A stretch of DNA of 64,000 bases from Onthophagus taurus (taxonomy: Eukaryota > Arthropoda > Insecta > Coleoptera > Scarabaeidae): positions 9,798,501 to 9,862,500 of the forward strand of contig NC_091975.1 of NCBI RefSeq assembly GCF_036711975.1. Direction: 5' to 3'. Positions 19,901 through 56,000 of the stretch are shown in pieces (position 1 is the stretch's first letter; every line of letters starts with the position of its first letter). A program made the translations under genes and the position numbers. The notes under the pieces are model-generated. The model did not search any database. It had not been told where the DNA came from and saw only the letters and a list, made by a program, of their open reading frames with translations.

Positions 19901-22900
19901 CTAAGTATAAAATTTGCTACAACTTTTGTATTAAAAGTTTTTTTTGTAAATGCTCTGATAACCAAGTGTTACCATCAAGTACTTTCAAAACGACGAAATT
20001 CATCAAATTTTCATAATTTCGTATTTTTCTCAATGTTTATGCATCTGAGAGCAAAAGTATAAGAAAGCAATATTGCTAAGTATAAAATTTGCCACAACTT
20101 TTGTTTTAAATGTTTTTTTGTAACATGCTTCGATATCCAAGTGTTATCATTAACTACATTTCAAACAACAAAATTCATCAAATTTTCATAATTTCGTATT
20201 TTTCTCAATATCTATACATTTGAGAGCAAAAGTACAAGAGAGCAATATTGCTAAGTATGAAATTTGCTACAACTTTTGTTTTAAATGTTTTTTTGTAACA
20301 TGCTTCGATATCCAAGTGTTATCATTAACTACTCTTCAAACAACAAAATTCATCAAATTTTCATAATTTCGTATTTTGCTCAATATCTACACATCTGACA
20401 GCAAAAGTACAACAGAACAATATTGCTAAGTATAAAATTTGCTACAACTTTTGTTTTAAAAGTTTTTTTGTAACATGCTTCGATATCCAAATATTATCAT
20501 TAACTACTTTTCAAACATCAAAATTCATAAAATTTCATAATTTCGTATTTTGCTCAATATCTACACATCTGACAGCAAAAGTACAACAGAACAATATTGC
20601 TAAGTATAAAATTTGCTACAACTTTTGTTTTAAAAGTTTTTTTGTAACATGCTTCGATATCCAAATATTATCATTAACTACTTTTCAAACATCAAAATTC
20701 ATAAAATTTCATAATTTCGTATTTTTCTCAAAAAATATACATCTGAGAGCAAAAGTACAAGAGAGCAATATTGCTAAGTATAAAATTTGCTACAACTTTT
20801 GTTATAAAAGTCTTTTTGTAACATGCTTCAATATCCAAGTATTATCATTAACTACTTTTCAAACAACAAAATTCATCAAATTTTCATAATTTCGTATTTT
20901 TCTCAATATCTATCTATCTGACAGCAAAAGTACAAGAGAGCAATATTGCTAAGTATAAAATTTGCTACAACTTTTGTTTTAAAAGTTTTTTTGTAACATA
21001 CTTCGATATCCCAGTGTTATCATTAACTACTTTTCAAACAACAAAATTCATCAAGTTTTCAAAATTTCGTATTTTTCTCAATATCTATGCATCTGAGAGC
21101 AAAAGTACAAAAGAGCAATATTGCTAAGTACAAAATTTGCTACAACTTTTGTTTAAAAAATTTTTTTATAACAAACTCCGATTTCCGAGTGTTACCATTA
21201 GCTAGTTGTAAAACAACGAAATTCATAAAATTTTCATAATTTCACATTTTTCTCGATATTTACGCATCTGAGAGCAAAAGTGAAAGAGAGCAATATTATT
21301 AAGAATAAAATTTGCTACAATTTTTGTTCCAAAAGTTTTTTTGTAATATGCGCCGATTCCCTGAAGACGCACTTTAAATTCGAAACTTTCTAGTTCTAGT
21401 GTTGCTTATTACATTAAATGTTATTTAGCGCTGACGTCCCGAGATGTAGCGTCGTCTTAGATTCTACCGTCCTTGATCATATACAGTGTCCGCCAAAAGT
21501 CAACGTCACCCGTTTTTTTTGTTCCATTTCATCTATGTTTCTGAAATTTAATTCATTCCGATTTTTCGATCCAAAGTATTTTCAAGATGGTGGCCCGGAA
21601 GTAGACCACAAAATCGTTATTTTATATCGGTTATTAATCCGTTATATCGAGGTGTTTTTAACTTATTTTTAACAACAAACAACAAAAACTACTAAAAATA
21701 AGGAAAAACGAACTTGAAATTTACGTAGTATTTTTGATAATCATATAAAGAACGAACCCATCCCACAATCCGCAATCTTCTAATCGATAATAGAGACTAT
21801 TCCAAGCAGCAATTAAATTAAATTTTTTTATCGTTTTAACTAATTACTTCTCAGACAAATATAGATAAAAATTTACCCGCTTTGATGTAAAATATCACAC
21901 AATTGGAATAAAATATCAACTTCCAGCGGCGTCATTTGAGACATAGCTTGTGCAGAATGCATAAACTCTTCTTTGGTGACTTCTTGCGCGCGATGACCGC
22001 TCGTAACATTTAAATAAATACGTTTCGCAAGCTCCATATTATTTAAAAGGGAATTAAAAGCGATGAAATAGGGGAAACTAACTCTCCTACCCGTTTGGCT
22101 TCCGCTAGCAGCCTAAAAAATCATTTCTAATTAAAATAATTAAAAAAAAAAATGATTTACCTCAATTAAATGCGATTGAACTTGCTTCGTTAATAAATGA
22201 CTCTTAATGCTGAGCATAATATCGTGAAAATCCAAAACGGAAATGAAACCAGATCCATCTTTATCAGCTCTGCGAAAACCTTCAATCGCGTATTCTTCAT
22301 GAAAATCGTGAATGAATTGACTAAACTCGCTGTAGGTTATTAATCGTTGGCGGTTCTTTCCAAAATACAACTCAACGAATGTCGATTCGATATTAAACGG
22401 GATTCTAAGATGTAGTTCGGTTTTTTTCATCACCTCCACGAATTCGGCTAAAACACAACAACAAAAATTTAATTTACAACAAATTAAAACTAATTTAGTT
22501 AACTTACAAAAACTAACCATTCCATTTCCGTTAACATCGAAAAGTTGAAACGCCGTTTTATAAAGTGCATCGGGGTAACATAAAAGGCCTTCGAACGCTT
22601 GGAATTCGGAGTACGAGATGAACCCATCTTTGCTGGTGTCAACGATGGAAGCCAACATACGCACGGAATCTTGGTTGAAATCGGTCCCGTTGAAAAGGCC
22701 GAGATATTTCCGCACGAAGTCTTCGGCGGTCATAAATTTTTCGCCGTTCTTTTCGACCGACGCGTATTTGTTGAAGATTTCATGGAGTTGATCTGGATTA
22801 GCCCTTTTCAAATAACCTGCACCCTAAAAAATTATTAAAAATAAATTCATTTTAATTCAATTCTTTTTTAAACCTCAGTCATAAAGTAAAATGAAATAAA

Positions 22901-25900
22901 ACGAGCTTGATTCCGAAATATCCCAGGACGATCTAGATTTCGATTTAATTCTAGGTCTATTTAAAAATAGAGTTTCCGCTCTGAATCATATTTCTTATCT
23001 TTGCTTTTCCACTCAAATTATTTTTATTTTAATAGTTTTTATTTTAGCCACATAGCATATACACATTTGAAATAGTGAAATTCACTGAGTATTGTTTTCT
23101 GCTGAATGCTATTTGATTGCATTTGTCGCAATTTATGCAAAAAAAACTTTTTGAGACATATATTTATAATCTGTCTATATCAATGTATAAACTTTGACAA
23201 TCAGAAGTGGATTAAACCTTCGAGAACATTTTACAATCATCAGCGTATTGCACAATAACACTAGTGTGAAAGCATTCATATATATCATTAATATAAGCTA
23301 TAAAGAGTAAAGTTAGATATGAAAATATTAATTTTTACAGCTTGATATGTATCCGAAACAATGATAAACAAGTTAATCATCTATGTGGACATCGAACTGC
23401 ATCAAGCAGTGTAGTCTTCTTCGAGAATTTCGATTTTCAATGAAATAGTCTTCTGTAAGCAGTATTTAAATTTCTGTCAACAGTATTTAACCATATCCAA
23501 ACAATATTTAGTGTTTAATTATCAGTATGTAGTCTTTTATTAGCTGCACCAATTCATCTTCCATTAGAAGTATCTACTACAGCGTCCTGTATTTAGTTTT
23601 GACAACATCTAGTCTTCTATTGGCAGTATTCAATCTTCTACCAGTACTATTTAGTCTTCTTCAAGCAGTATTTATTGTTCTACCATCGGTATCCAGTCAT
23701 CATCCATTACCAGTATCTAGTACATAATGTCCAGTGTACTGCAAACTATCTTTAAGCAGTATAAAATGATCTGCAATGAGAATTTTGATTTTCGATGATG
23801 CAGTCTTTTGCAAAGAGCACTATTTTATCTTTTGACAACATCTAGTCTTCTATTAGCAGTATTTAATCTTCTGCCAGCAGTATTTAGTCTTCTCCAAGCA
23901 ATATTTATTGTTCTACCATTGGCATCGTCGCATATAATAAGTATTCAGTCTTCTTCCATTACTAGTATCTAATACATAATGTCCGATTCCCGAGTGTTAC
24001 CACTAATAACTTGAAAAAACAACAAATTCATAAAATGTTCATAATTTCGTATTTTTTTCAATATCTATGCATCTGACAGCAAAAGTACAAGAGAGCAATA
24101 TTGCTAAGTATAAAATTTGCTACAACTTTTGTTATAAAAGTTTTTTTGTAACATGCTTCGATATCCTAGTGTTACCATCAAGTACTTTCAAAACGACGAA
24201 ATTCATCAAATTTTCATAATTTCGTCTTTTTCTCAATATCTATGCATCTGACAGCAAAACTACAAGAGAGCAATATTGCTAAGTATAAAATTTGCTACAA
24301 CTTTTGTTATAAAAGTTTTTTTGTAACATGATCCGATATCCTAGTGTTACCATTAACTACGTTTAAAACAACAAAATTCATAAAAGTTTCATAATTTCGT
24401 AATTTTCTCAATATCTATGCATCTGACAGCAAAAGTACAAGAGTGCAATATTGCTAAGTATAAAATTTGCTATAACTTTTGTTTTAAATGTTTTTTTGTA
24501 ACATGCTCTGATATCCAAATGTTACCATGCAGTACTTTCAAAACGAAGAAATTCATAAAATTTTCATAATTTCGTATTTTTCTCAATATCTATGCATCTG
24601 ACAGCAAAAGTACAAGGGAGCAATATTGATAAGTATAAAATTTGCTACAACTTTTGTATTAAAAGTCTTTTTGTAACATACTTCGATATACCAATGTTAT
24701 CATTAACTACTTTTCAAACAACAAAATTCATCACATTTGCATAATTTCGTATTTTTCTCAATATCTATGCATCTGACAGCAAAAGTACAAGAAAGCAATA
24801 TTGCTAAGTAAAAAATTTGCTACAACTTTTGTTTTAAATGTTTTTTTGTAACATACTTCGATATCCCAGTGTTAGCATTAACTACTTTTCAAACAACAAA
24901 ATTCACCAAATTTTCATAATTTCGTATTTTTCTCAATATCTATGCATCTGACAGCAAAAGTACAAGAGAGCAATATTGCTAAGTATAAAATTTGCTACAA
25001 CTTTTGTTTTAAAAGTTTTTTTGTAACATACTTCGATATCCCAGTGTTATCATTAACTACTTTTCAAACAACAAGATTCATCAAATTTTCAAAATTTCGT
25101 ATTTTTCTCAATATCTATACATCTGAGAGCAAAAGTACAAGAGAGCAATATTGCTAAGTACAAAATTTGCTACAACTTTTGTTTTAAAAGTTTTTTTGTA
25201 ACATGATCCGATATCCTAGTGTTACCATTAACTACGTTTAATACAACAAAATTCATCAAATTTTCATAATTTCGTAATTTTCTCAATGTCTATGCATCTG
25301 ACAGCAAAAGTACAAGAGAGCAATATTGCTAAGTATAAAATTTGCTACAACTTTTGTTATAAAAGTTTTTTTGTAACATGCTTCGATATCCAAGTGTTAT
25401 CATTAACTACTTTTCAAACAACAAAATTCATCAAATTTTCATAATTTCGTATTTTTCTCAATATCTATGCATCTGACAGCAAAAGTACAAGAGAGCAATA
25501 TTGCTAAGTATAAAATTTGCTACAACTTTTGTTTTAAAAGTTTTTTTGTAACATACTTCGATATCCCAGTGTTATCATTAACTACTTTTCAAACAACAAG
25601 ATTCATCAAATTTTCAAAATTTCGTATTTTTCTCAATATCTATACATCTGAGAGCAAAAGTACAAGAGAGCAATATTGCTAAGTATAAAATTTGCTACAA
25701 CTTTTGTTATAAAAGTTTTTTTGTAACATGCTTCGATATCCCAGTGTTACCATCAAGTACTTTCAAAACGACGAAATTCATAAAATTTTCATAATTTCGT
25801 ATTTTTCTCAATATCTATGCACCTGACAGCAAAAGTACAAGAGAGCAATATTGCTAAGTATAAAATTTGCTACAACTTTTGTTATAAAAGTTTTTTTGTA

Positions 25901-28900
25901 ACATGATCCGATATCCTAGTGTTACCATTAACTACGTTTAAAACAACAAAATTCATCAAATTTTCATAATTTCGTAATTTTCTCAATGTCTATACATCTG
26001 ACAGCAAAAGTACAAGAGAGCAATATTGCTAAGTATAAAATTTGCTACAACTTTTGTTATAAAAGTTTTTTTGTAACATGCTTCGATATCCTAGTGTTAC
26101 CATCAAGTACTTTCAAAACGACGAAATTCATAAAATTTTCATAATTTCGTATTTTTCTCAATATCTATGCATCTGACAGCAAAACTACATGAGAGCAATA
26201 TTGCTAAGTATAAAATTTGCTACAATTTTTGTTATAAAAGTTTTTTTGTAACATGCTTCGATATCCAAGTGTTATCATTAACTACTTTTAAAACAACAAA
26301 ATTCATAAAATTTTTATAATTTCGTAATTTTCTCAATGTCTATACATCTGACAGCAAAAGTACAAGAGAGCAATATTGCTAAGTATAAAATTTGCTACAA
26401 CTTTTGTTATAAAAGTTTTTTTGTAACATGCTTCGATATCCAAGTGTTATCATTAACTACTTTTCAAACAACAAAATTCATCAAATTTTCATAATTTCGT
26501 ATTTTTCTCAATATCTATACATCTGAGAGCAAAAGTACAAGAGAGCAATATTGCTAAGTATAAAATTTGCTGCAACTTTTGTTATAAAAGTTTTTTTGTA
26601 ACATGCTTCGATATCCTAGTGTTACCATCAAGTACTTTCAAAACGACGAAATTCATAAAATGTTCATAATTTCGTATTTTTCTCAATATCTATGCATCTG
26701 ACAGCAAAAGTACAAGAGAGCAATATTGCTAAGTATAAAATTTGCTACAACTTTTGTTTTAAAAGTTTTTTTGTAACATACTTCAATATCCCAGTGTTAT
26801 CATTAACTACTTTTCAAACAACAAAATTCATCAAATTTTCAAAATTTCGTATTTTTCTCAATATCTATACATCTGAGAGCAAAAGTACAAGAGAGCAATA
26901 TTGCTAAGTATAAAATTTGCTACAACTTTTGTTTTAAAAGTTTTTTTGTAACATACTTCGATATCCCAGTGTTATCATTAACTACTTTTCAAACAACAAA
27001 ATTCATCAAATTTTCATAATTTCGTATTTTTCTCAATATCTATGCATCTGACAGCAAAAGTACAAGAGAGCAATACTGCTAAGTATCGGTATCCAGTCTT
27101 CATCCATTGCCAATATCTAGTACATAATGTCCAGTGTACTGCAAGCAGAATCAAGTAGTTTACAAGCAATATTCAGTCTTCTGGAAACTATCTTTAAGCA
27201 GTATAAAATGATCTGCAATGAGAATTTTGATTTTCGATGATGCAGTCTTTTGCAAACAACGCTATTTTATCTTTTGACAAGATCTAGTCTTCTATTAGCA
27301 GTATTTAGTCTTCTCCAAGCAGTATGTATTGTTCTACCATTGGTATCTAGTCTCATATAAAAACTATCCAGTCTTCTTCCATTACTAGTATTTAGTACAT
27401 AATATCGAGCGAATATTCAGTTTTCTGCAAGCAATCTTTAAGCAATATAAAATGATCTGCAATGATATTTACGCATCTGAGAGCAAAAGTGAAGGATTCA
27501 TCAAATGTTAATACTTTCGTACTTTTCTCGATATTTAAGCATCTAGGACTAAAAGTAAAGGAGAGCAATATTGTTGAGAATAAAATTTCCTACAACTATT
27601 GTTCTAAAATTTTTTTTGTATAGTGCTCCAAATTCATAAAATTTTCATATTTTTGTGATTTTCTCAATATTGACGCATCTGAGAGCAATATCATTAAGAA
27701 TATAATTTGCTACAACTTTGCTTGCAAAAAACAATGATTTCAGCAAATTTTCATGTTTTTCTTGATAGATTTACGGAAAATTTAATTTTCTGCCAACAAT
27801 ATTTAGTCCTCTCCAAGCAGTATTTAGTTGTTCTATTATAGGTATGTAGTCTTTTATTACCAGCATCCAGTCATCTTCTATTAGAAGTGTCTAGTACTCG
27901 ATGAGTATAGTTTAGCCTTCAATGCAAACAGTTCCTATTCTTCTGCAAGTATTAAGAAATCATCTGCAAGCAACATCTACTCTTTTGCAAACATTTAGTA
28001 GTCTTCCACAAGAAAAATTTACTCTTGTTCATTTAGTCTTCTGTCTACAACATCAATAGCTTGCAGCAGAACATTTTCTGTCTCTAATATCCAGTATCTA
28101 TCATACAATCAAACAGAGCGCAGGTTTCATTAAGATATCTAATTTTCTGGAAATGATATAAAATTGGAAGGATGGAGTTTAACGCAAATTATTAACAAAA
28201 CAGACGCTTTTTATGCGTTAAAGAATAGATAACAAGAAAATATGATATCAACAGTTGTGTAACTATCTTATAAGTGTTGATGTAATTAGATCTTTTTATT
28301 AAAAGATCTTGTTTTATTAGTATGTTTTTATTGTAATAATTAAAAAAATTTGACAAGTTCATAAAGCGCCATCTTTTGGGTAATAGCAGAACCGATTTTT
28401 TAAAAATTAAATTTTGAAAAAAGCTAAAATATTAATTAACTCAACAAAAATTGATTTGTTCTAATAAAATTCGTTTTAAATAAATTTGTTTATGTTAAAA
28501 TATAAAAATATTTTAGGATTTGCATTTTCGAATAAAATCATGCAATGTTTTTGAAGTTTTGAAATCGAAATTTCAACAGTTTCTCGAAAGATAACGTTTC
28601 TAAGTTAAAAACAACTCGTTTTCGTCCAATTCATTAAGTTTAAAAATGAGATTAGACGTCGATCTATGTTGTAAATTTAATAAACTAACGTCATCGCGTA
28701 CACAATTATTTATTCCATCAAAAAGATCTATTAACACGAACGATAACGATGATGCATTGTTTAAAAAAATTTTTTTAATTGTTATTGAAATAACAACAAA
28801 TTTAAAAATATCATATTTTCGCTCCCTAAGGATATAATTGAGGTTATTAAATCGAATTATTGCTTCTAATTACGATTTGAAAGCGAAAAAATGGGGATAT

Positions 28901-29480: not shown

Positions 29481-32400
29481 AAATTAAATTAAAATTACAT
29501 CACATTAGAATTAAAAACAATTAAATTAATTTAATTAATAAATTTATTAATAATCTTTTTAAGTCACCATCTCTTTTTTAACAATTCCAACTAGTAATTT
29601 CATAAACGTCATTTTTAGCTGTCATAATGATAAATGTTAACGATATCTTCAAAGAAAAGGATTTTAAAACAACAATTAAATTAATTTAATTAATAAATTT
29701 ATTATTAATAATAATCTTTTTAAGTCGCCATCTCTTTTTTAACATTCCAACTAGTATATTGATTCGATAATTTCATAAACGTCATTTTTAGCTGTCATAA
29801 TGATAAATGTTAACGATATCTTCAAAGAAAAGGATTTTAAAACATCAATTAAATTAATTTAATTAATAAATTTATTATTAATAATAATCAGTTTAAGTCG
29901 CCATCTCTTTTTTAACATCCCAACTAGTGTATTGATTCGATAATTTCATAAACGTCATTTTTAGCTGTCATAATGATAAATGTTAAGGATATCTTCAAAG
30001 AAAAGGATTTTAAAACGTGAATTAAATTAATTTAATTAATAAATTTATTATTAATAATAATCTGTTTAAGTCGCCATCTCTTTTTTAACATCCCAACTAG
30101 TGTATTGATTCGGTAATTTCATAAACGTCATTTTTAGCTGTCATAATGATAGCTGTTAGCGATATCTTCAAAGAAAAGGATTTTAAAACGTCAATTAAAT
30201 TAATTTAATTAATAAATTTATTATTAATAATAACCTTTTTAAGTCGCCATCTCTTTTTTAACATTCCAACTAGTGTATTGATTCGGTAATTTCATAAACG
30301 TCATTTTTAGCTGTCATAATGATAGCTGTTAGCGATATCTTCAAAGAAAAGGATTTTAAAACACCAATTAAATTAATTTAATTAATAAATTTATTATTAA
30401 TAATAATCTGTTTAAGTCGCCATCTCTTTTTTAACATCTCAACTAGTGTATTGATTCGATAATTACACAAACGTCATTTTTAGCTGTCATAATGATAGCT
30501 GTTAACGATATCTTCAAAGAAAAGGATTTTAAAACATCAATTAAATTAATTTAATTAATAAATTTATTATTAATAATAATCTGTTTAAGTCGCCATCTCT
30601 TTTTTAACATTCCAACTAGTGTATTGATTCGATAATTTCACAAACGTCATTTTTAGCTGTCATAATGATAGCTGTTAACGATATCTTCAAAGAAAAGGAT
30701 TTTAAAACATCAATTAAATTAATTTAATTAATAAATTTATTGTTAATAACAATCTTTTTAAGTCGCCATCTCTTTTTTAACATTCCAACTAGTGTATTGA
30801 TTCGGTAATTTCATAAACGTCATTTTTAGCTGTCATAATGATAGCTGTTAACGATATCTTCAAAGAAAAGGATTTTAAAACATCAATTAAATTAATTTAA
30901 TTAATAAATTTATTATTAATAATAATCTGTTTAAGTCGCCATCTCTTTTTTAACATCCTAACTAGTGTATTGATTCGGTAATTTCATAAACGTCATTTTT
31001 AGCTGTCATAATGATAGCTGTTAACAATATCTTCAAAGAAAAGGATTTTAAAACATCAATTAAATTAATAAATTTATTATTAATAATAATCTGTTTAAGT
31101 CGCCATCTCTTTTTTAACATTCCAACTAGTGTATTGATTCGGTAATTTCATAAACGTCATTTTTAGCTGTCATAATGATAGCTGTCAACGATATCTTCAA
31201 AGAAAAGGATTTTAAAACGTCAATTAAATTAATTTAATTAATAAATTTATTATTAATAATAATCTTTTTAAGTCGCCATCTCTTTTTTAACATCCCAACT
31301 AGTGTATTGATTCGGTAATTTCATAAACGTCATTTTTAGCTGTCATAATGATAGCTGTTAACGATATCTTCAAAGAAAAGGATTTTAAAACACCAATTAA
31401 ATTAATTTAATTAATAAATTTATTATTAATAATAACCTTTTTAAGTCGCCATCTCTTTTTTAACATCCCAACTAGTGTATTGATTCGATAATTTCACAAA
31501 CGTCATTTTTAGCTGTCATAATGATAGCTGTTAACGATATCTTCAAAGAAAAGGATTTTAAAACATCAATTAAATTAATTTAATTAATAAATTTATTATT
31601 AATAATAATCTGTTTAAGTCGCCATCTCTTTTTTAACATTCCAACTAGTGTATTGATTCGATAATTTCACAAACGTCATTTTTAGCTGTTATAATGATAG
31701 CTGTTAACGATATCTTCAAAGAAAAGGATTTTAAAACACCAATTAAATTAATTTAATTAATAAATTTATTATTAATAATAATCTGTTTAAGTCGCCATCT
31801 CTTTTTTAACATCCTAACTAGTGTATTGATTCGGTAATTTCATAAACGTCATTTTTAGCTGTCATAATGATAGCTGTTAACGATATCTTCAAAGAAAAGG
31901 ATTTTAAAACGGCAATTAAATTAATTTAATTAATAAATTTATTATTAATAATAATCTGTTTAAGTCGCCATCTCTTTTTTAACATTCCAACTAGTGTATT
32001 GATTCGGTAATTTCATAAACATCATATTTAGCTGTCATAATGATAGCTGTTAACGATATCTTCAAAGAAAAGGATTTTAAAACGTCAATTAAATTAATTT
32101 AATTAATAAATTTATTATTTATAAAATCTTTTTAAGTCTCCATCTCTTTTTTAACATCCCAATTAGTGTATTGATTCGGTAATTTCATAAACGTCATTTT
32201 TAGCTGTCATAATGATAAATGTTAACGATATCTTCAAAGAAAAGGATTTTAAAACACCAATTAAATTAATTTAATTAATAAATTTATTATTAATAATAAT
32301 CTTTTTAAGTCGCCATCTCTTTTTTAACATTCCAACTAGTGTATTGATTCGGTAATTTCATAAACGTCATTTTTAGCTGTCATAATGATAAATGTTAACG

Positions 32401-33105
32401 ATATCTTCAAAGAAAAGGATTTTAAAACACCAATTAAATTAATTTAATTAATAAATTTATTATTAATAATAATCTTTTTAAGTCGCCATCTCTTTTTTAA
32501 CATCCCAACTAGTGTATTGATTCGATAATTTCATAAACGTCATTTTTAGCTGTCATAATGATAAATGTTAACGATATCTTCAAAGAAAAGGATTTTAAAA
32601 CGTCAATTAAATTAATTTAATTAATAAATTTATTATTAATAATAATCTTTTTAAGTCGCCATCTCTTTTTTAACATTCCAACTAGTGTATTGATTCGGTA
32701 ATTTCATAAACGTCATTTTTAGCTGTCATAATGATAGCTGTTAGCGATATCTTCAAAGAAAAGGATTTTAAAACACCAATTAAATTAATTTAATTAATAA
32801 ATTTATTATTAATAATAATCTGTTTAAGTCGCCATCTCTTTTTAAACATTCCAACTAGTGTATTGATTCGGTAATTTCGTAAACGTCATTTTTAGCTGTC
32901 ATAATGATAAATGTTAGCGATATCTTCAAAGAAAAGGATTTTAAAACACCAATTAATAATAAATATATTAATTTAATTAATATATTTATTATTAACAATA
33001 ATCTGTTTAAGTCGCCATCTCTTTTTTAACATTCCAACTAGTGTATTGATTCGGTAATTTCATAAACGTCATTTTTAGCTGTCATAATGACAGCTGTTAA
33101 GATTT
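29481..33105. repeat. satellite C: ~173 bp tandem array, about 20 copies, between two promoters
   Basis: The landmark GGATTTTAAAAC recurs about every 173 bp from 29659 to 32937, with one copy near 31043-31208 shortened by 8 bp. Each unit has a TAAT-rich near-palindrome (TTAATTTAATTAATAAATTT), the phrase TAAGTCGCCATCTCTTTTTT and GTCATTTTTAGCTGTCATAA. The array fills nearly all of the 4 kb between the divergent Aralar (ATG 29163) and SNX4 (ATG 33178) genes, and stops about 70 bp before the SNX4 start codon. The monomer is unrelated in sequence to satellites B and D. Confidence 0.95.
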
Positions 33106-44080: not shown

Positions 44081-47000
44081 TCATTCAAACGCTAAAATCA
44101 ATTTGTTATTACTTTTAAGCTTCAATTAAAAGAATAACTTACGTGAAGGCGAACGTGTCATTGGCTTTGGGGTACAATTTGCGTTGTCGACCGTCGAATT
44201 CAAAAAATCCCATATCAAAATGGTATCATCATGGGAGCTGCTCACTATTTGAAATTCATCGAATTGCAAACGGAATACTCGACCGGTGTGTTCCTAATTT
44301 TTTATTTTTATTAATTAAATTGTTAACAAAATTAATTACTACTATTTTATTTACACCATAATTAATAATGGAGTTGTAGGACTAAGAAGTGGGAATTCCT
44401 ATATGCAGAGAGGATAAAGAGAGTAAAAAAATTGGAGTTGGAGAAAAAAAGGGCAACTGAGAAATGTTGGAGAATAATAGAACACTATATACTGCTTGGA
44501 GAAGACTAGGTATTGTTTGCAGAAGACTGCTTCATTGAAAATCATTTTGTATTGCTTGCAGAGAACTTAATTCTGTTTATAAGACGCTCGACACTATGTA
44601 TACTGATAATTGAAGAAGACTGGAAGTAATGGCACACTAAATACTGCTTGGGGAAGGTTAAATATTGCTAATAGAAGACTAGATGCTGTTTGCAGAATAC
44701 TGCTTCATCGAAAATTCTCATTGCAGACAACTTGATTCTGCTTGCAGGACGTTCGATTTTATGTATTAGTACTGGTAATGCAAGACTACTGGTTATAAAA
44801 GACTCGATATCGATAGTAGAACACTAAATACTGCTTGGAGAAATGTTGATTCTGCTTGCAAGACGCTCCATACTATGTACTAGATACTGGGTTATAGAAG
44901 AAGACTAGATACTGGTAATAATAGATTACTTACCGATAATAGAACGCTAAATACTGCTTGGAGATGAATAAATATTGCTAATAGAAGACTAGATGCTGTT
45001 TGCAGAACACTGCTTCATCGAAAATCGAAATTCTCATTGCAGCCAACTTGATTCTGCTTGCAGGACGTTCGATATTATGTATTAGTACTAGTAATGCAAG
45101 ACTACTGGTTATAAAAGACGCGATATCGATAGTAGAACACTAAATACTGCTTGGAGAAATGTTGATTCTGCTTGCAAGACGCTCCATAATATGTACTAGA
45201 TACTGGGTTATAGAAGAAGACTAGATACTGGTAATAATAGATTACATACCGATAATAGAACGCTAAATACTGCTTGGAGATGAGTAAATGCTGCTGGCAG
45301 AAGATTAAATACTGTCAAAAGAAGACTAGATGGTCTCAACAAAAGACTAGGTATTGTTTTCCAGAGGGCTGCTTCATCGAAAATCGAAATTTTCATTGTC
45401 CACCATTTTATACTGCTTAAAGATTGGTTCCAGAAGACTAAATAATGCTTGCAGACAACTTAATTCTGCTTGTAATACGCTTGGCATTGTGTACTAGATA
45501 CTGGTAATGGAAGAAGACTCTGGATACTGGTTATAAAAGATTAGATACTGATAGCAGAACACTTAATACTACTAAGAGACGATTAAACACTGTTAATAGA
45601 AGACTAGATGCTGCCAACAGAATAATAGGTGTTGTTTGCAGAAAACTGCTTCATCAAAAATTGAAATTCTCATTGCAGATCATTTTATACTGCTTAAATA
45701 TTGCTTGCAGAAGACTGAATACTGCTTGTAGACAACTTGAATGTAGATGACTGGTTATAAAAGACTAGACATTGATAGTAAAACACTAAATACTGCTTGG
45801 AGAAATGTTGATTTTGCTTGCAAGACGCTCCATACTATGTACTAGATGCTGGGTTATACAGGTGTTTAAAATTAGTAAAAGTCCTCAAATTGCAAAGATA
45901 CAGGCAAATTTTAACACATTTTTCTAAATATCTTAAACATTATTTATGGTAAAGCGTTGAAATTTGGTACAGTGTAAATTAATATTTATTTTAGTGCTAT
46001 TATTGAAATCAGAGTCCAACATTTTTGCATTTAACACGAAAACGGTGATTTTTATCAATATTATCTAAGAGTAATAAAAGTTTCTAAACTAAATTTACTA
46101 ATAGAAACTGTAAAAATAAATGTAGCGTTATGATAGAATAAAAAAGTTCTGAGCAAACAAACTTTAGGAACAGTCTGTATAGCATTGTTCCCGCGAACCG
46201 ATCCAATTCATAAATTGACTAACAATTTTACATCACATTGATTTATACTGTACCAAATTTCAGCGTTTTTATTTTATGAGTTATGATTGAGTTAATTTTC
46301 GAAAATCAACAATTTTGATATTTAATCGATTTAGAGCTTATAAATAAAAAATGGTAATAATTGGGTTCAACCTTGTTATGGATCTAGTCTTTATGGCCCA
46401 TTAATAATGTTTTATGTATAAAAAATATTTCCCCCTCGCTTTTATTTTATGAGTTATGATTGAGTTAATTTTCTAAAATCAACAATTTTGATGTTTAATC
46501 GATTTAGAGCTTATAAATAAAAAATGGTAATAATTGGGTTCAATCTTGTTATGGATCTAGTCTTTATGGTCCATTACTAAGGTTTTGTGTATAAAAAGTT
46601 TTTCTCTACCGCTTTTAGTTTTTGAGTTATGATTGAGTTAATTTTCTAAAATCAACAATTTTGATGTTTAGTCGATTTAGAGCTTATAAATAAAAAATGG
46701 TAATAATTGGGTTCGATCTTGTTATGGATCTAGTCTTTATGGCCCATTACTAAGGTTTTATGTATAAAAAGTTTTTCTCTATCGCTTTTATTTTATGAGT
46801 TATGATTGAGTTAATTTTCGAAAATCAACAATTTTGATGTTTAATCGATTTAGAGCTTATAAATAAAAAATGGTAATAATTGGGTTCAATCTTGTTATGG
46901 ATCTAGTCTTTATGGCCTATTACAAAGGTTTTATGTATAAAAAGTTTTTCTCCATCGCTTTTAGTTTATGAGTTATGATTGAGTTAATTTTCGAAAATCA

Positions 47001-50000
47001 ACAATTTTGATGTTTAATCGATTTAGAGCTTATAAATAAAAAATGGTAATAATTGGGTTTAATTTTGTTATGGGTCTAGTCTTTATGGCCCATTACTAAG
47101 GTTTTATGTATAAAAAGTTTTTCTCTATCACTTTTAGTTTTTGAGTTATGATTGAGTTAATTTTCTAAAATCAACAATTTTGATGTTTAATTCGGTTTAG
47201 AGCTTATAAATAAAAAATGGTAATAATTGGATTCAATCTTGTTATGGATCTAGTCTTTATGATTCATTACTAAGGTTTTATGTATAAAAAATATTTCGCC
47301 ATCGCTTTTATTTTATGAGTTATGATTGAGTTAATTTTCGAAAATCAACAATTTTGATGTTTAATCGATTTAGAGCTTATAAATAAAAAATAGTAATAAT
47401 TGAGTTCAATCTTTTTATGGATCTTGTCTTTATGGTCCATTACTAAGGTTTTATGTATAAAAAATATTTCCCCATCGCTTTTATTTAATGAGTTATGATT
47501 GAGTTAATTTTCGAAAATCAACAAATTTGATGTTTAATCGGTTTAGAGCTTATAAATAAAAAATAGTAATAATTGGGTTCAGTCTTATTATGGATGTAGT
47601 CTTTATGGCCCATTACTAAGGTTTTATGTATAAAAAGTATTTCCCCCTCGCTTTTAGTTTTTGAGTTATAATTGAGTTAATTTTCTAAAATCAACAATTT
47701 TGATGTTTAATCGATTTAGAGCTTATAAATAAAAAATGGTAATAATTGGGTTTAATCTTGTTATGGATTTAGTCTTTATGGCCCATTACTAAGGTTTTAT
47801 GTATAAAAAGTTTTTCTCCATCGCATTTAGTTTTTGAGTTATGATTGAGTGAATTTTCGAAAATCAACAATTTTGATGTTTAATCGGTTTAGAGCTTATT
47901 AATAAAAAAGGGTAATAATTGGGTTCAATCTTTTTATGGATCTAGTCTTTATGGCCCATTACTAAGGTTTTATGTATAAAAAGTATTTCCCCATCGCTTT
48001 TAGTTTTTGAGTTATGATTGAGTGAATTTTCGAAAATCAACAATTTTGATGTTTAATCGGTTTAGAGCTTATTAATAAAAAAGGGTAATAATTGGGTTCA
48101 ATCTTTTTATGGATGTAGTCTTTATGGCCCATTACTAAGGTTTTATGTATAAAAAGTATTTCCCCATCGCTTTTAGTTTTTGAGTTATGATTGAGTGAAT
48201 TTTCGAAAATCAACAATTTTGATGTTTAATCGGTTTAGAGCTTATTAATAAAAAAGGGTAATAATTGGGTTCAATCTTTTTATGGATCTAGTCTTTATGG
48301 CCCATTACTAAGGTTTTATGTATAAAAAGTATTTCCCCATCGCTTTTAGTTTTTGAGTTATGATTGAGTGAATTTTCGAAAATCAACAATTTTGATGTTT
48401 AATCGGTTTAGAGCTTATTAATAAAAAAGGGTAATAATTGGGTTCAATCTTTTTATGGATCTAGTCTTTATGGCCCACTACTAAGGTTTTATGTATAAAA
48501 AGTATTTCTTCATCGCTTTTAGTTTTTGAGTTATGATTGAGTTAATTTTCGAAAATCAACAATTTTGATGTTTAATCGATTTAGAGCTTATAAATAAAAA
48601 ATGGTAATAATTGAGTTCAATCTTTTTATGGATCTAGTCTTTATGGTCCATTACTAAGGTTTTATGTATAAAAAATATTTCCCCATCGCTTTTATTTTAT
48701 GAGTTATGATTGAGTTAATTTTCTAAAATCAACAATTTTGATGTTTAGTCGATTTAGAGCTTATAAATAAAAAATGGTAATAATTGAGTTCAATCTTTTT
48801 ATGGATCTAGTCTTTATGGTCCATTACTAAGGTTTTATGTATAAAAAATATTTCCCCATCGCTTTTATTTTATGAGTTATGATTGAGTTAATTTTCTAAA
48901 ATCAACAATTTTGATGTTTAGTCGATTTAGAGCTTATAAATAAAAAATGGTAATAATTGGGTTCAATCTTTTTATGGATCTAGTCTTTATGGTCCATTAC
49001 TAAGGTTTTATGTATAAAAAATATTTCCCCATCGCTTTTATTTTATGAGTTATGATTGAGTTAATTTTCTAAAATCAACAATTTTGATGTTTAATCGGTT
49101 TAGAGCTTATAAATAAAAAATAGTAATAATTGGGTTCAGTCTTATTATGGATGTAGTCTTTATGGCCCATTACTAAGGTTTTATGTATAAAAAGTATTTC
49201 CCCATCGCTTTTAGTTTTTGAGTTATAATTGAGTTAATTTTCGAAAATCAACAATTTTGATGTTTAATCGATTTAGAGCTTATAAATAAAAAATGGTAAT
49301 AATTGGATTCAATCTTATTATGGATTTAGTCTTTATGGCCCATTACTAAAGTTTTATGTATAAAAAGTTTTTCTCCATCGCTTTTAGTTTTTGAGTTATA
49401 ATTGAGTTAATTTTCGAAAATCAACAATTTTGATGTTTAGTCGATTTAGAGCTTATAAATAAAAAATGGTAATAATTGGGTTCAATCTTGTTATGGATCT
49501 AGTCTTTATGGCCCATTACTAAGGTTTTATGTATAAAAAGTTTTTTTCTATCACTTTTAGTTTTTGAGTTATGATTGAGTTAAACTGCTTTGCGATCGAC
49601 GTTAAATGTGTTAAAATTTCTTAATTTTGATGGATTTTTACATGAATCGTCATTATTTTCGCTCTAGGTTAAATTTGTTATCTGAGTCACCGAAACAACC
49701 TGTAGAAGAAGACTGGATATTGGTAATAATAGATTACATACCGATAATAGAAGACTAAATATTGCTTGGAGATGAGTAAATACTGCTGGCAGAAGATTAA
49801 ATACTGCTAATAGAAGACTAGATGCTGTTAACAGAAGACTAGGTGGTGTTTGCAGAAAACTGCTTCATTGAAAAACAAAATTCTCATTGCAGATCACTTT
49901 ATACTGCTTAAAAATTGTTTCTAGACAACTTGATTGTGCTTGCAGGACGCTTGATGCTATGTATTAGATATTAGTAATGAAACTAGATGCTGTCTACAGA

Positions 50001-53000
50001 ATAGTAGGTGTTGTTTGCAGAAGACTGCTTCATCAAAAATTGAAATTCTCATTGCAGATCATTTTATACTGCTTATAGATTGCTTGCAGAAGACTAGATA
50101 TTACTGGCAGACAAGTAGATGACAAGTGTATTAGATACTGCTAATGGAAGAGGACTGGATGTTGGTAATAAAAGATACTAAATACTACTGGCTAAAGATT
50201 AAATATTGCCTGCAAAAGATTAAATACTACTAATAGAAGACTAGATGCTGTCAACAATACAGGGTAATTCAAATTCGACCCCCACCATTGGCATTTCAGA
50301 AACCATAAGAGATACAGAAATAGTTAAATAGGAGCAAAGTTGCGTATCATCATTTTTCAACAAACTTTTTGAATCTAGCAGTTTTAGTTTTTAAAATATG
50401 GCCGAAAAAGAAAAAAATGACATTTTCGTTTTTTGCCTATAACTCCTTTATTTTTTGTTCGTTCGTGAATCTGAAAAAACATTCTGAAGGCAACTTTTTA
50501 TGAAAAATGTCATGGCACAATTAGAAATTTTCTCCAACGTTTCGTTTTCGTGAAACTATCATCAGGTTTATTTATTTTTTTTTTTTTTGAATAATTCAAT
50601 GTTTTTTTAAATGAAATACATTGTCAGAAAAAAAGCAGCATTGTCAAGCAAAAAGGTCAGAAAAGTACTTATTAAATGTTGAAAACGCGTCGATTTTATG
50701 GATTGAGGATCAAACTCAAAAAAGAGCCACAAAGGGCTGCACTGGTTGGCTTGATAAATTTAAAAATTCTCACAGCGTTCACAATTTGAAGTTTTTTAAT
50801 TATAAGACAGCAAGGGTTTATCCATAATCTTTAAAGTGGATTATTTAAGGTGGTGGTTATGTTCTGCAGCAAGTGTTTAATGCAATTCAAGTATTCCAAA
50901 AATGAAAAAAATTGTTGGCTAAAGACCACCATCTTAGTTTTGCTGGTAGAGAATAGTCCAGGTCATCCATCTAACTCTACTAAGCTTAAATGAAAACATA
51001 TTATACCAGAAGAATATTCGATAAGTTTCCAGATAATTTGGACATAATACCGACCTAACTTTATTGAAAACATCCTCGTTGAATGGTTGGAAAATCTGGA
51101 AAAGTGTGGCTATATCAGAGAAGAAATTGCAAAATGACATCCAGACTGCAGTAAGTTTTAGGGCGGTTGTTACTGGGAGATGGTTTTAATGGTAGATATT
51201 GAAGAGTCACATGATTCCCATGCGAGATTGGCACAAATATTACTGATTATTTAGTTACTAAAACTAAAATATCTCCAAAAATCATCTTACCACCAAAGTC
51301 TTAAGACAAAGCGCGCTTGCGGGTCGTCGTGGATCAAGGGCCGCAACCAAATCCCACACCTTTATTTTCCCATCATAAGCCCCACTAACTATTCGCTTTG
51401 AATCGAAGCGTATACATCTCACAAGTTCTTCGTGACCTTCTAATATACGGAGACAAATTCCTATTTCTATATCCCATAATCTTAAATCACAATTTTTGTT
51501 ATTAAAGACGAACATTCATGTTTTATATCTTATACTTACCTTATAGTATTATCAGAACTTCCACTTACAACGAGCCTATCGCGATATTGCAAGCAAGCTA
51601 TCCCCCTTTTGTGTCCATTTAACGTCCTGACAAATTCGCAAGTTGATGTGTTCCACACTTTAATCGTTCGATCTCCGGAAGCCGACACAATGTATTTTTC
51701 ATCGAAATCGACGACGTTCACCGCCGCTCTATGCCCAACCAAAACCCTACGCAACGTTATTTCCGTTTGCGACGTCATATCCCAAACGGCTATCGAACGA
51801 TCTTTCGAACAAGTAACCATCATCCCATTATTAAACCTTAAATGAAGCACAGCCTCGCAATGATGTATCAGCGTGTTAACCATTTCGCCGGTGTTTACGT
51901 TCCAAACGCGCACCGTCGCGTCGCTTGACCCGCTTATAATCACTTTGTCATCGTATTGAAGACATAAAACGGACCCCGTGTGACCCATTAGTACTTTGGT
52001 CGATTGTAAAGAGTTGCGATCCCATATTTTTATCGTGTTATCCCTTAAACCGGAAACGATTTTTTGGTCATCGTATTGCAAACAATAGACGCCTTTGCTG
52101 TTTTCTGAGCGGCAATTAATTCTTTGGAGAATGTGTCTCCCGTTTCGCCAGTTACTTTCTATACTATCGATGTCTTGAATTATTTGCGGGTAAAGTGTAC
52201 GATAGAATGGGTGAGCTCGTTGATTTTCCGGACGTGGTTTAAATAGATATTGAATCCTATTAAAATAAAAATTTTTTTTATTAAATTATGGAAACTTGGA
52301 TGAATTAATATTTGGACCATCACTTGACTAAGCGACAAATGAACACTTCTCAGAATTTTTATCACTGATTTTTGAGCCATCATAAGCACAGAATCCGCTT
52401 GGTTAGTTGTTTTACGATTATACAGGATATTTCTGTAAGTCGTGGCTTTTTAATTTACAAAATTAAAGTTTAGAAAGTTGTAAAATGAAATTAAGGACGA
52501 AGAAATATTAAGAAACTTAGGAAAAATTCAAGAATCATCATGTGGCTTAAAAATCAACGATTTTTTTTTAATCAATGTGAAAAAACTGCTATTATATGAT
52601 AACTAACTTCAGGTTTAAAATGTCAACCTCAATTTTAACATATTTGTAATCTTCATTAAAAAACCTTTAAAATGAGTACAAACACAACATATTTATCTTC
52701 AATATTAATGAAGTTATGGTCAACTTCCGGTTAAGAATGTCAATGTCAATTTTATGGTCCGTTACTAAGGTTTTATGTATAAAAAATATTTTCCCATCGC
52801 TTTTATTTTATGAGTTATGATTGAGTTAATTTTCGAAAATCAACAATTTTGATGTTTAATCGATTTAGAGCTTATAAATAAAAAATGGTAATAACTGGAT
52901 TCAATCTTATTATGGATTTAGTCTTTATGGCCCATTACTAAGGTTTTATGTATAAAAAGTTTTTCTCCATCGCTTTTAGTTTTTGAGTTATGATTGAGTT

Positions 53001-56000
53001 AATTTTCGAAAATCAACAATTTTGATGTTTAATCGGTTTAGAGCTTATAAATAAAAAATGGTAATAATTGGGTTCAATCTTGTTATGGATTTAGTCTTTA
53101 TGGCCTATTACTAAGGTTTTATGTATAAAAAGTTTTTCTCTATCACTTTTAGTTTTTGAGTTATGATTGAGTTAATTTTCTAAAATCAACAATTTTGATG
53201 TTTAATCGGTTTAGAGCTTATAAATAAAAAAGGGTAATAATTGAGTTCAATCTTTTTATGGGTCTAGTTTTTATGGTCCATTACTAAGGTTTTATGTATA
53301 AAAAGTTTTTCTCCATCGCTTTTAGTTTTTGAGTTATGATTGAGTTAATTTTCGAAAATCAACAATTTTGATGTTTAATCGATTTAGAGCTTAAATAAAA
53401 AATGGTAATAATTGGGTTTAATCTTGTTATGGATCTAGTCTTTATGGCCCATTACTAAGGTTTTATGTATAAAAAGTTTTTCTCTATCACTTTTAGTTTT
53501 TGAGTTATGATTGAGTTAATTTTCTAAAATCAACAATTTTGATGTTTAATCGGTTTAGAGCTTATAAATAAAAAAGGGTAATAATTGAGTTCAATCTTTT
53601 TATGGGTCTAGTCTTTATGGTCCATTACTAAGGTTTTATGTATAAAAAGTTTTTCTCCATCGCTTTTAGTTTTTGAGTTAATTTTCTAAAATCAACAATT
53701 TGGATGTTTAATCGTATTAGAACTTATAAATAAAAAATGGTAATAATTGGGTTCAATCTTGTTATGGATCTAGTCTTTATGGCCCATTACTAAGGTTTTA
53801 TGTATAAAAAGTTTTTCTCTATCACTTTTAGTTTTTGAGTTATGATTGAGTTAATTTTCTAAAATCAACAATTTTGATGTTTAATCGGTTTAGAGCTTAT
53901 AAATAAAAAAGGGTAATAATTGAGTTCAATCTTTTTATGGGTCTAGTCTTTATGGTCCATTACTAAGGTTTTATGTATAAAAAGTTTTTCTCCATCGCTT
54001 TTAGTTTTTGAGTTAATTTTCTAAAATCAACAATTTGGATGTTTAATCGTATTAGAACTTATAAATAAAAAATGGTAATAATTGGGTTCAATCTTGTTAT
54101 GGATCTAGTCTTTATGGCCCATTACTAAGGTTTTATGTATAAAAAGTTTTTCTCCATCGCTTTTAGTTTTTGAGTTAATTTTCGAAAATCAACAATTTTG
54201 ATGTTTAATCGATTTAGAGCTTATAAATAAAAAATGGTAATAATTGGGTTCAATCTTGTTATGGATTTAGTCTTTATGGCCTATTACTAAGGTTTTATGT
54301 ATAAAAAGTATTTCCCCATCGCTTTTAGTTTTTGAGTTATGATTGAGTTAATTTTCGAAAATCAACAATTTTGATGTTTCATCGATTTAGAGCTTATAAA
54401 TAAAAAATGGTAATAATTGGGTTCAATCTTGTTATGGATTTAGTCTTTATGGCCTATTACTAAGGTTTTATGTATAAAAAGTATTTCCCCATGGCTTTTA
54501 GTTTTTGAGTTATAAGTTATAATTGAGTTAATTTTCGAAAATCAACAGTTTTGATGTTTAATCGGTTTAGAGCTTATAAATAAAAAATGGTAATAATTGG
54601 GTTTAATCTTGTTATGGATCTAGTCTTTATGGCCCATTACTAAGGTTTTACGTATAAAAAGTTTTTCTCCATCGCTTTTAGTTTTTGAGTTATGATTGAG
54701 TTAATTTTCGAAAATCAACAATTTTGATGTTTAATCGATTTAGAGCTTATAAATAAAAAATGGTAATAATTGCGTTCAATCTTGTTATGGATTTAGTCTT
54801 TATGGCCTATTACTAAGGTTTTATGTATAAAAAGTTTTTCCCCATCGCTTTTGTTTTTAAGTTATAATTGAGTTAATTTTCGAAAATCAACAATTTTGAT
54901 GTTTAATCGGTTTAGAGCTTATAAATAAAAAATGGTAATAGTTGGGTTTAATCTTGTTATGGATCTAGTCTTTATGGCCCATTACTAAGGTTTTATGTAT
55001 AAAAAGTTTTTCCCCATCGCTTTTATTTGATGAGTTATGATTGAGTTAATTTTTGAAAATCAACAATTTTGATGTTTAATCGGTTTAGAGCTTATAAATA
55101 AAAAATAGTAATAATTGGGTTCAATCTTGTTATGGATCTAGTCTTTATCGTCTATTTCTAAGGTTTTATGTATAAAAAGTTTTTCTCCATCGCTTTTAGT
55201 TTTTGAGTTATAATTGAGTTAATTTTCGAAAATGAACAATTTTGATGTTTAATCGGTTTAGAGCTTATAAATAGAAAATGGTAATAATTGGGTTTAATCT
55301 TGTTATGGATCTAGTCTTTATGCCTCATTACTAAGGTTTCATGTATAAAAAGTTTTTCTCCATCGCTTTTAGTTTTTGAGTTATGATTGAGTTAATTTTC
55401 GAAAATCAACAATTTTGATGTTTAATCGATTTAGAGCTTATAAATAAAAAATGGTAATAATTGGGTTCAATCTTGTTATGGATCTAGTCTTTATGGCCCA
55501 TTACTAAGGTTTTATGTATAAAAAGTATTTCCTCATCGCTTTTAGTTTTTGAGTTATAATTGAGTTAATTTTCGAAAATCAACAATTTTGATGTTTAATT
55601 TTAAGTTGTAAAATGAAATTAAGGACGAAGAAATATTAGAAACTTAGGAAAAATTCAAGAATCATCATGTGGCTTAAAAATCAACGATTTTTTTTTAATC
55701 AATGTGAAATGACTTCAGTTATAAAACTTCTATTGTATGATAACTAACTTCAGGTTTAAAATGTCAACCTCAATTTTAACATATTTGTAATCTTCATTAA
55801 AAAACCTTTAAAATGAGTACAAATACAACATATTTATCTTCAATATTAATGAAGTTATGGTCAACTTCCGGTTAAGAATGTCAATGTCAATTTTGACATA
55901 TTTGTAATCGTCGTGAAAAATCCTTTAAAATAACTCCAAACATGATACGTTTAATTCCAATATTACTCGAGATATAAGCAACTTCCGATTTGAAATGTCA

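Follow-up and report, generated by a model that had tools for sequence, protein, structure and literature searches.

Satellite satD of the beetle Onthophagus taurus was very probably spread by a composite hAT transposon

How does a satellite array come to lie inside a transposon, and is that transposon the vehicle that spreads it? The question is raised by a 64,000-nucleotide stretch of the genome of the beetle Onthophagus taurus (NC_091975.1, here C10:9798501-9862500; hereafter the window), in which an array of the 173-bp satellite satD is enclosed in an element with CAGG...CCTG ends. The original prediction for this locus was that transposons can seed or carry satellites, either because a tandem duplication inside the CAGG element expanded or because the element spreads pre-formed arrays. 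Searches of the genome (290.8 Mb, 33 contigs) indicate that satD has very probably been spread by a composite hAT transposon, in which the array is bracketed by a left and a right miniature inverted-repeat transposable element (MITE). The general part of the prediction, that a transposon can spread satellite arrays, is upheld, but the carrier appears to be the pair of hAT MITEs and not the CAGG/CCTG element.

A 25-mer of satD gave 1321 + 1095 genome matches at up to 2 mismatches, compared with 0 for the control, and 13 of the 20 distinct array edges outside the window share a common flank. The left inner junction reads ...GCGATCGACGTTATGG(C/T)CACCACTG followed by ATTTAGAG CTTATAAA..., and the right inner junction reads ...TTTAATCG ATTTAGAG followed by CAGT(G/A)GTGTCCACTAATTTTTGATC.... 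Judged by their sequence, the shared flanks are the ends of a small hAT element with 12-bp terminal inverted repeats (TIRs), and ATTTAGAG would be the 8-bp duplication that this element made in a satD monomer. Scanning the junction patterns over the whole genome with up to 3 mismatches (the reversed patterns, as control, returned 0 matches) revealed 77 left (54 exact) and 75 right junctions, in which both MITEs join satD at this one position. When left and right junctions on one strand and within 20 kb were paired, 43 pairs were obtained. Their arrays hold between 3 and 46 monomers, apart from one doubtful pair with n = 98, and in 34 of the 43 the pair length deviates from n x 173 + 8 by no more than 0.1 monomer. 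A patterned junction also accompanies 15 of 17 clusters of exact 25-mers among the first 100 listed places, all of them on C1. The layout of the composite is left MITE (consensus 166 bp), ATTTAGAG, (173-bp satD)n, ATTTAGAG, right MITE (consensus 188 bp).

The outer ends were checked at all 43 pairs, by comparing the 8 bp outside the left MITE with the 8 bp outside the right MITE. Nine pairs with truncated outer ends were set aside (C7:24418157, C10:10860332, C3:25547053, C2:26870107, C2:3644218, C1:6154595, C7:5037548, C7:19793021 and C8:6609411). Among the 34 testable pairs the two sides agree at 8/8 in 25, at 7/8 in five and at 6/8 in one, while three fail; in a cross-locus control drawn from 32 scored loci, 3/992 comparisons reached 8/8 and 49/992 reached at least 7/8, with a mean of 4.5/8. 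Exact duplications occur round arrays as short as 3 and as long as 46 monomers; in the longest such unit (C3:24442385-24450339, n = 46) both flanks read ATGTATAG. Two further units outside the 43 pairs also display 8/8 duplications, CTATAACC at C6:18810 and TTCTATAC at L123, which holds about 2 monomers. Automatic scoring succeeded at 27 of 40 loci. At C5:11422306, C1:41077531, C1:22579278 and C8:18425273 one of the MITEs has lost part of its end, and the duplication lies directly against the remaining sequence. At C3:6328189, which matches at 7/8, the right side comprises a truncated MITE, about 2 satD monomers and a right MITE, and the outermost end was taken. Two loci 458 kb apart, C8:17967338 (n = 3; L069) and C8:18425273 (n = 6; L086/L114/L087), have the same flanks and the same duplication, indicating that one insertion was copied with its surroundings and that the array length has changed since. 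Two copies of an element that, together with the DNA between them, are enclosed by one outer duplication constitute, by these footprints, a macrotransposon or composite.

The two MITEs of the composite are distinguishable from each other and from solo copies. The comparison included 34 left and 25 right MITEs from 40 loci and seven solo MITEs; MITEs missed by the end patterns and right stretches of at least 260 bp were left out. A 22-bp segment is absent from 34/34 left MITEs but present in 17/25 right and 5/7 solo copies, while a position of the inner TIR is T or C in 34/34 left MITEs and A in 25/25 right and 7/7 solo copies. A second marker is A in 25/25 right MITEs and G in 31/34 left and 7/7 solo copies. 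Across the array the markers fall into haplotypes (outer-left, inner-left, inner-right), with TTA at 16, GCG at 12 and other combinations at 3 of the 31 loci, out of 40, that were fully scored. This linkage between outer-left and inner-right markers is expected of two subfamilies in which the composite is copied whole, and is not expected of loci that were each assembled on the spot. Mean identity is 0.885 between solo and left MITEs, 0.892 between solo and right, 0.923 among left and 0.944 among right MITEs. The outer duplications, in combination with the distinct and linked left and right markers, point to composite (macro-) transposons as the agents by which the arrays are dispersed.

The element that supplied the ends is short. 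The consensus of the seven solo copies has 12-bp TIRs, CAGTGGTGTCCA ... TGGACACCACTG; these copies, a small sample picked by eye from the listed end matches, are 122-223 bp long and have duplications of 8/8 in three cases and 7/8 in four. Two of them, L117 (C2:23060089-23060355) and L121 (C3:18137190-18137456), have the same flanks on different contigs and are one insertion copied inside a larger repeat. When up to 3 mismatches are allowed, solo and composite copies together contribute 231 5' ends and 202 3' ends genome-wide. An element this short could not encode a transposase; it is a MITE in being short, presumably non-coding, bounded by TIRs and present in many copies. Its 8-bp target-site duplication and short TIRs are those of hAT elements. 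TA occupies positions 4-5 in 30 of 32 left duplications, and in two further units as well. In the parts of the sources available, nnnTAnnn is given as the duplication consensus of Buster-group hAT elements (PMC3517528, PMC3499496), and the nnnTAnnn duplications of the composites would place them with that group. A search for the hAT dimerisation domain (PF05699), in which 150 of 1076 candidates were scored, showed such domains to be numerous in the genome, some of them in open frames of more than 600 codons.

Comparison of 293 monomers from 28 arrays showed an identity of 0.936 within arrays and 0.929 between arrays, a small excess that lies beyond 1000 label shuffles. Pairs of monomers at 0.985 or above number 52 within the same array and 39 between arrays. 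As identity between arrays nearly equals that within them, almost the full diversity of the satD family is common to the arrays. The pattern is consistent with movement as multimers followed by local reshuffling, although exchange between loci could produce it equally well. There is also a weak periodicity of three monomers, identity at lag 3 being 0.9415 compared with 0.936-0.937 at lags 1, 2 and 4, and lag 3 exceeds lags 1-2 in 13 of 18 satD arrays.

A mechanism in four steps would account for these units. A Buster-group hAT MITE would have inserted into a satD monomer, duplicating ATTTAGAG; the MITE-bearing monomer would then have been duplicated by exchange within the array, generating two MITEs in one register that subsequently diverged, with the left MITE losing 22 bp between GCGATCGAC repeats and its inner TIR being changed. 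The shared register suggests these two steps, as does a single locus, C8:5386 (L057 884-1048), at which a left-type MITE lies between satD sequences with ATTTAGAG on both sides. This locus is the only one with a left-type CAGTGTTG end among the 75 listed right-junction matches, and it may be a surviving pre-composite state. In the third step, documented by footprints across many loci, hAT transposase supplied in trans would join the outermost left and right ends and move the package, creating a new 8-bp nnnTAnnn duplication each time. After landing, the arrays would lengthen and shorten, as is demonstrated by the one duplicated insertion with three monomers in one copy and six in the other. 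On balance we favour the further view that satD has become, in effect, the body of a transposon. One founder array would have captured two copies of its resident MITE, and fixed TIR changes would have weakened the inner ends, such that the transposase mainly uses the outer ends and an array of up to about 8 kb moves. Most dispersed satD would then descend from this founder, and each landing could seed a new satellite locus.

The window itself appears to contain a decayed example. As originally predicted, its satD array lies between CAGG...CCTG termini (45859-49702) with a TA duplication at 45857-45858 and 49703-49704, and the empty site is readable because the minisatellite phrase GGGTTATAGAAGAAGACT is present twice in unbroken form, at 44889 and 45205. 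The array (46267-49583 in the repeat analysis, 46264-49581 on the plus strand in the map of parts; period 173 bp, 95% matches) contains 19.2 copies and makes up about 86% of the element, in agreement with the first estimate of about 19 monomers and some 85%. To seek relatives of the host element, its leftmost 400 bp and its rightmost 119 bp were searched against the whole genome; 715 and 370 candidates were listed, and 40 of each were scored. The resulting loci, L001-L038, include the window (L001, L009) and a sample of 36 others; because L026 and L027 mark opposite ends of a single copy, these others occupy 35 distinct places. Intact relatives are palindromic elements of about 1.18 kb that start with CAGGGTGTTTCGG, L004 being taken as the parent. 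Both CAGGGTG... ends occur in 22 of 37 loci (L002-L038), with TA on both sides in 21 of the 22, or 20 of 21 distinct copies, and the termini are thus not accidental. The TA duplication and the long inverted arms from CAGGGTGTTTCGG are those of a palindromic MITE, presumably of Tc1/mariner type given its TA duplication. Against L004 the window copy aligns in pieces and is therefore rearranged. Its outer terminal arm (45859-45985, minus strand) comprises CAGGTGTTT and then parent positions ~1107-977 reversed, with about 70 bp of the end deleted; the inner arm (45985-46263, minus strand) corresponds to parent ~458-174 reversed at 94% identity, the loop and the other inner arm being deleted; and the other terminal arm (49604-49702, minus strand) corresponds to parent ~144-115 and 77-1 reversed and has the CCTG end. 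The most plausible reading is a minus-strand copy from whose interior about 0.5 kb (one inner arm and the loop) was deleted, and into which the array would have been placed at a cost of about 30 bp.

At its right edge the window array adjoins a 23-bp sequence, AAACTGCTTTGCGATCGACGTTA (49582-49604, plus strand), that is identical at 23/23 bp to the consensus of the right composite MITE, while the solo consensus reads differently at that place. The left MITE and the remainder of the right MITE are gone, and the outer duplication is lost. Most likely a composite landed in the CAGG element after the latter had inserted into the minisatellite, and its left MITE and the greater part of the right one were subsequently lost, which would make the window copy a nested relic, with satD as a passenger inside the CAGG transposon. 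The reverse nesting was observed at L144 (C2:3643970-3644225), where a right MITE is interrupted by a TA-flanked element of about 100 bp, CAGGGTGATTCAAAAAA...CACCCTG, that is, a TA-type element within a hAT MITE.

The sources of satD that were first proposed are extremely improbable in light of these data. The presence of satD inside the window copy, with its TA duplication and empty site, is what would be expected if the CAGG/CCTG transposon had created the satellite by internal tandem duplication or now spreads it. However, satD was absent from all 36 other sampled loci with ends of the element (35 distinct places; hundreds of copies lie beyond the sample), and the only loci in hand with satD inside a CAGG element, L001, L009 and L039, are all the window itself. 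satD mostly occurs without the element and is not a feature of the CAGG family as sampled, which speaks against the spread of pre-formed arrays by it and is an outcome that the original prediction had itself listed as a refutation. An expanded internal duplication is likewise at odds with the parent L004, which has no satD-like segment, with the hAT relic in which the window array ends and with the near-equal identity of monomers between and within arrays. For the window locus alone it is possible, though doubtful, that a broken array fragment or circle bearing a piece of the right MITE entered the CAGG element by end joining. The lost outer duplication and the approximately 30 bp of host element missing at the site agree with such an event, and another beetle, Tenebrio molitor, is reported to have circular satellite DNA in the part of that source available (PMC13192020). 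Conversely, composite junctions are so common at satD arrays, as the C1 clusters illustrate, that decay of a composite is the simpler explanation.

Other readings concern the bracketed arrays as a whole. If solo hAT MITEs had inserted first with their 8-bp duplications, and gene conversion from a single composite had later introduced satD with the MITE as homology, outer duplications would also be expected, and solo MITEs with duplications of 8/8 or 7/8 do exist, even if two of the seven represent one insertion. Yet the MITEs in composites are of composite and not solo type, as judged by the identities to the seven solos sampled, and the outer-left markers are linked to the inner-right markers across the array; we regard this course of events as quite improbable. 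Still less credence, indeed hardly any, can be given to the proposal that satD arrays were already scattered and that MITEs inserted independently into their edges, ATTTAGAG being a preferred site. That octamer does fit nnnTAnnn, but what lies beyond the MITEs is other DNA with a matching duplication and no further satD, which largely contradicts the proposal, and the left and right MITEs carry distinct fixed markers.

Several observations nevertheless weigh against dispersal of satD by a composite hAT transposon. Seven of the 20 distinct array edges outside the window are without the MITE flank, as are the edges of the second satD array in the window (52751-55599, plus strand); 34 left and 32 right junctions remain unpaired, and two of the 17 C1 clusters have no patterned junction, one of these having a truncated MITE. 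As the cross-locus control reaches 7/8 or better in 49/992 comparisons, the 7/8 cases add little and the exact matches carry the argument; these include the duplicated C8 insertion, leaving 24 independent exact cases. The units at C11:23761929, C3:4292288 and C1:8863288 fail the outer test: at the first, the left 8 bases were read one position further out than in the automatic reading (3/8 as taken, 4/8 automatic), and at the last the left 8 bases recur 3 bp beyond the right end. Visual reading was used for seven testable loci, namely C1:22579278, C8:18425273, C1:8050396, C1:41077531, C3:4292288 (which fails), C3:24442385 and C5:11422306. In clustering and next-to-next tests monomer order is shared between loci very weakly (0.9283 vs 0.9267), and long arrays may either have moved at that length or have grown later. 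The arrival of the window array as a composite rests on the one 23-bp relic, the outer duplication being lost. Finally, an autonomous hAT with these ends was not found, and neither of two candidates examined near MITE ends fits: at C1:18052500-18056850 the MITE-like ends are 1,143 bp apart (L164 3149-4291), lack matching 8-bp flanks and leave the hAT domain outside, and at C3:16216420-16220800 there is only a 3' end.

The window contains further arrays and elements. Direct repeats of a sequence X of about 280 bp lie on either side of the second satD array (52475-52754 and 55603-55894, both plus strand), and the X-satD-X arrangement (52475-55894) is as would be left by homologous integration of a circle of X and satD, or by tandem duplication. 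Other satellites of the genome have units of 175, 337 and 418 bp. Two arrays of one 175-bp satellite occupy 18243-21351 and 23984-27086, the second sitting abruptly in the same minisatellite; an automated scan for TIRs plus duplication found no convincing TIRs or duplication round either. The same scan reported the 8-bp TTGCAACA on both sides of an array at 29594-33100, which was rejected as a composite: the right copy lies in what appears by eye to be a protein-coding exon, and the match was thus taken as chance. At 50259-51250 another TACAGGG... element in the minisatellite is followed by what looks by eye like decayed transposase-like sequence.

How satellite arrays enter euchromatin at many places is an open question, for which circles, recombination and transposition have been proposed. 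For satD the route is legible base by base: the inner register is fixed, so are the markers of the left and of the right MITE, and at most testable loci an 8-bp duplication surrounds the whole array. These features also provide a simple test for any assembled genome, in which a shared junction register is sought on both sides of dispersed arrays, followed by outer duplications. The available parts of the literature on this theme describe satellites housed within a single MITE, a foldback element or a Helitron, and also maize macrotransposons. A search outside whose reach most subscription journals lay found no account of two MITEs that enclose a satellite array and move together with it. The footprints lend good support to the view that a hAT composite scattered satD to dozens of sites.

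The closest known systems, as described in the portions of the sources available, each share part of this arrangement. The miDNA4 MITE of Xenopus (Scalvenzi and Pollet 2014; via PMC12628747, PMC9659126) is, like the MITEs here, a non-autonomous DNA transposon that carries a satellite monomer or an array of variable copy number, but its array lies inside one Tc1/mariner MITE, whereas satD is bracketed by two hAT MITEs with an 8-bp satellite duplication visible at both inner junctions. In Tribolium castaneum, TCsat23 forms arrays in the inverted termini of one 9.5-kb element, Rehavkus-1_TC (PMC10218199), in contrast to the satD array, which is the middle part between two MITEs and reaches 46 monomers. 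The TCAST transposon-like elements of the same beetle (PMC3411249) resemble the satD units in that a satellite within a TIR unit with a target duplication is scattered in the genome; there, however, the satellite contributes to the long TIRs of a single element whose target duplication is ACT, and the parts of the source covered describe no array bracketed by two MITEs. Helitrons and Helentrons likewise disperse short satellite-like arrays in molluscs (PMC7492417, PMC5139131), although those arrays are parts of Helitrons while satD units are of hAT type with 8-bp duplications. Mar, a Buster-group hAT MITE of Drosophila (PMC3517528), shares the nnnTAnnn 8-bp duplications and has an 11-bp TIR that begins with CAG; satellite cargo and pairing, both present here, are not mentioned in the parts of that source covered. 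In the double-insertion model of satellite birth (McGurk and Barbash 2018) two copies of one transposable element also share one target site, but the element itself becomes the tandem repeat, while here a foreign satellite is trapped between two copies and moved. In the macrotransposons and alternative transposition of maize Ac/Ds (PMC4270019) the ends of two nearby hAT elements jointly move the DNA between or beside them, as proposed for satD; in maize they mobilise local chromosomal DNA from a single gene locus, whereas here the cargo is a satellite array amplified to dozens of loci.

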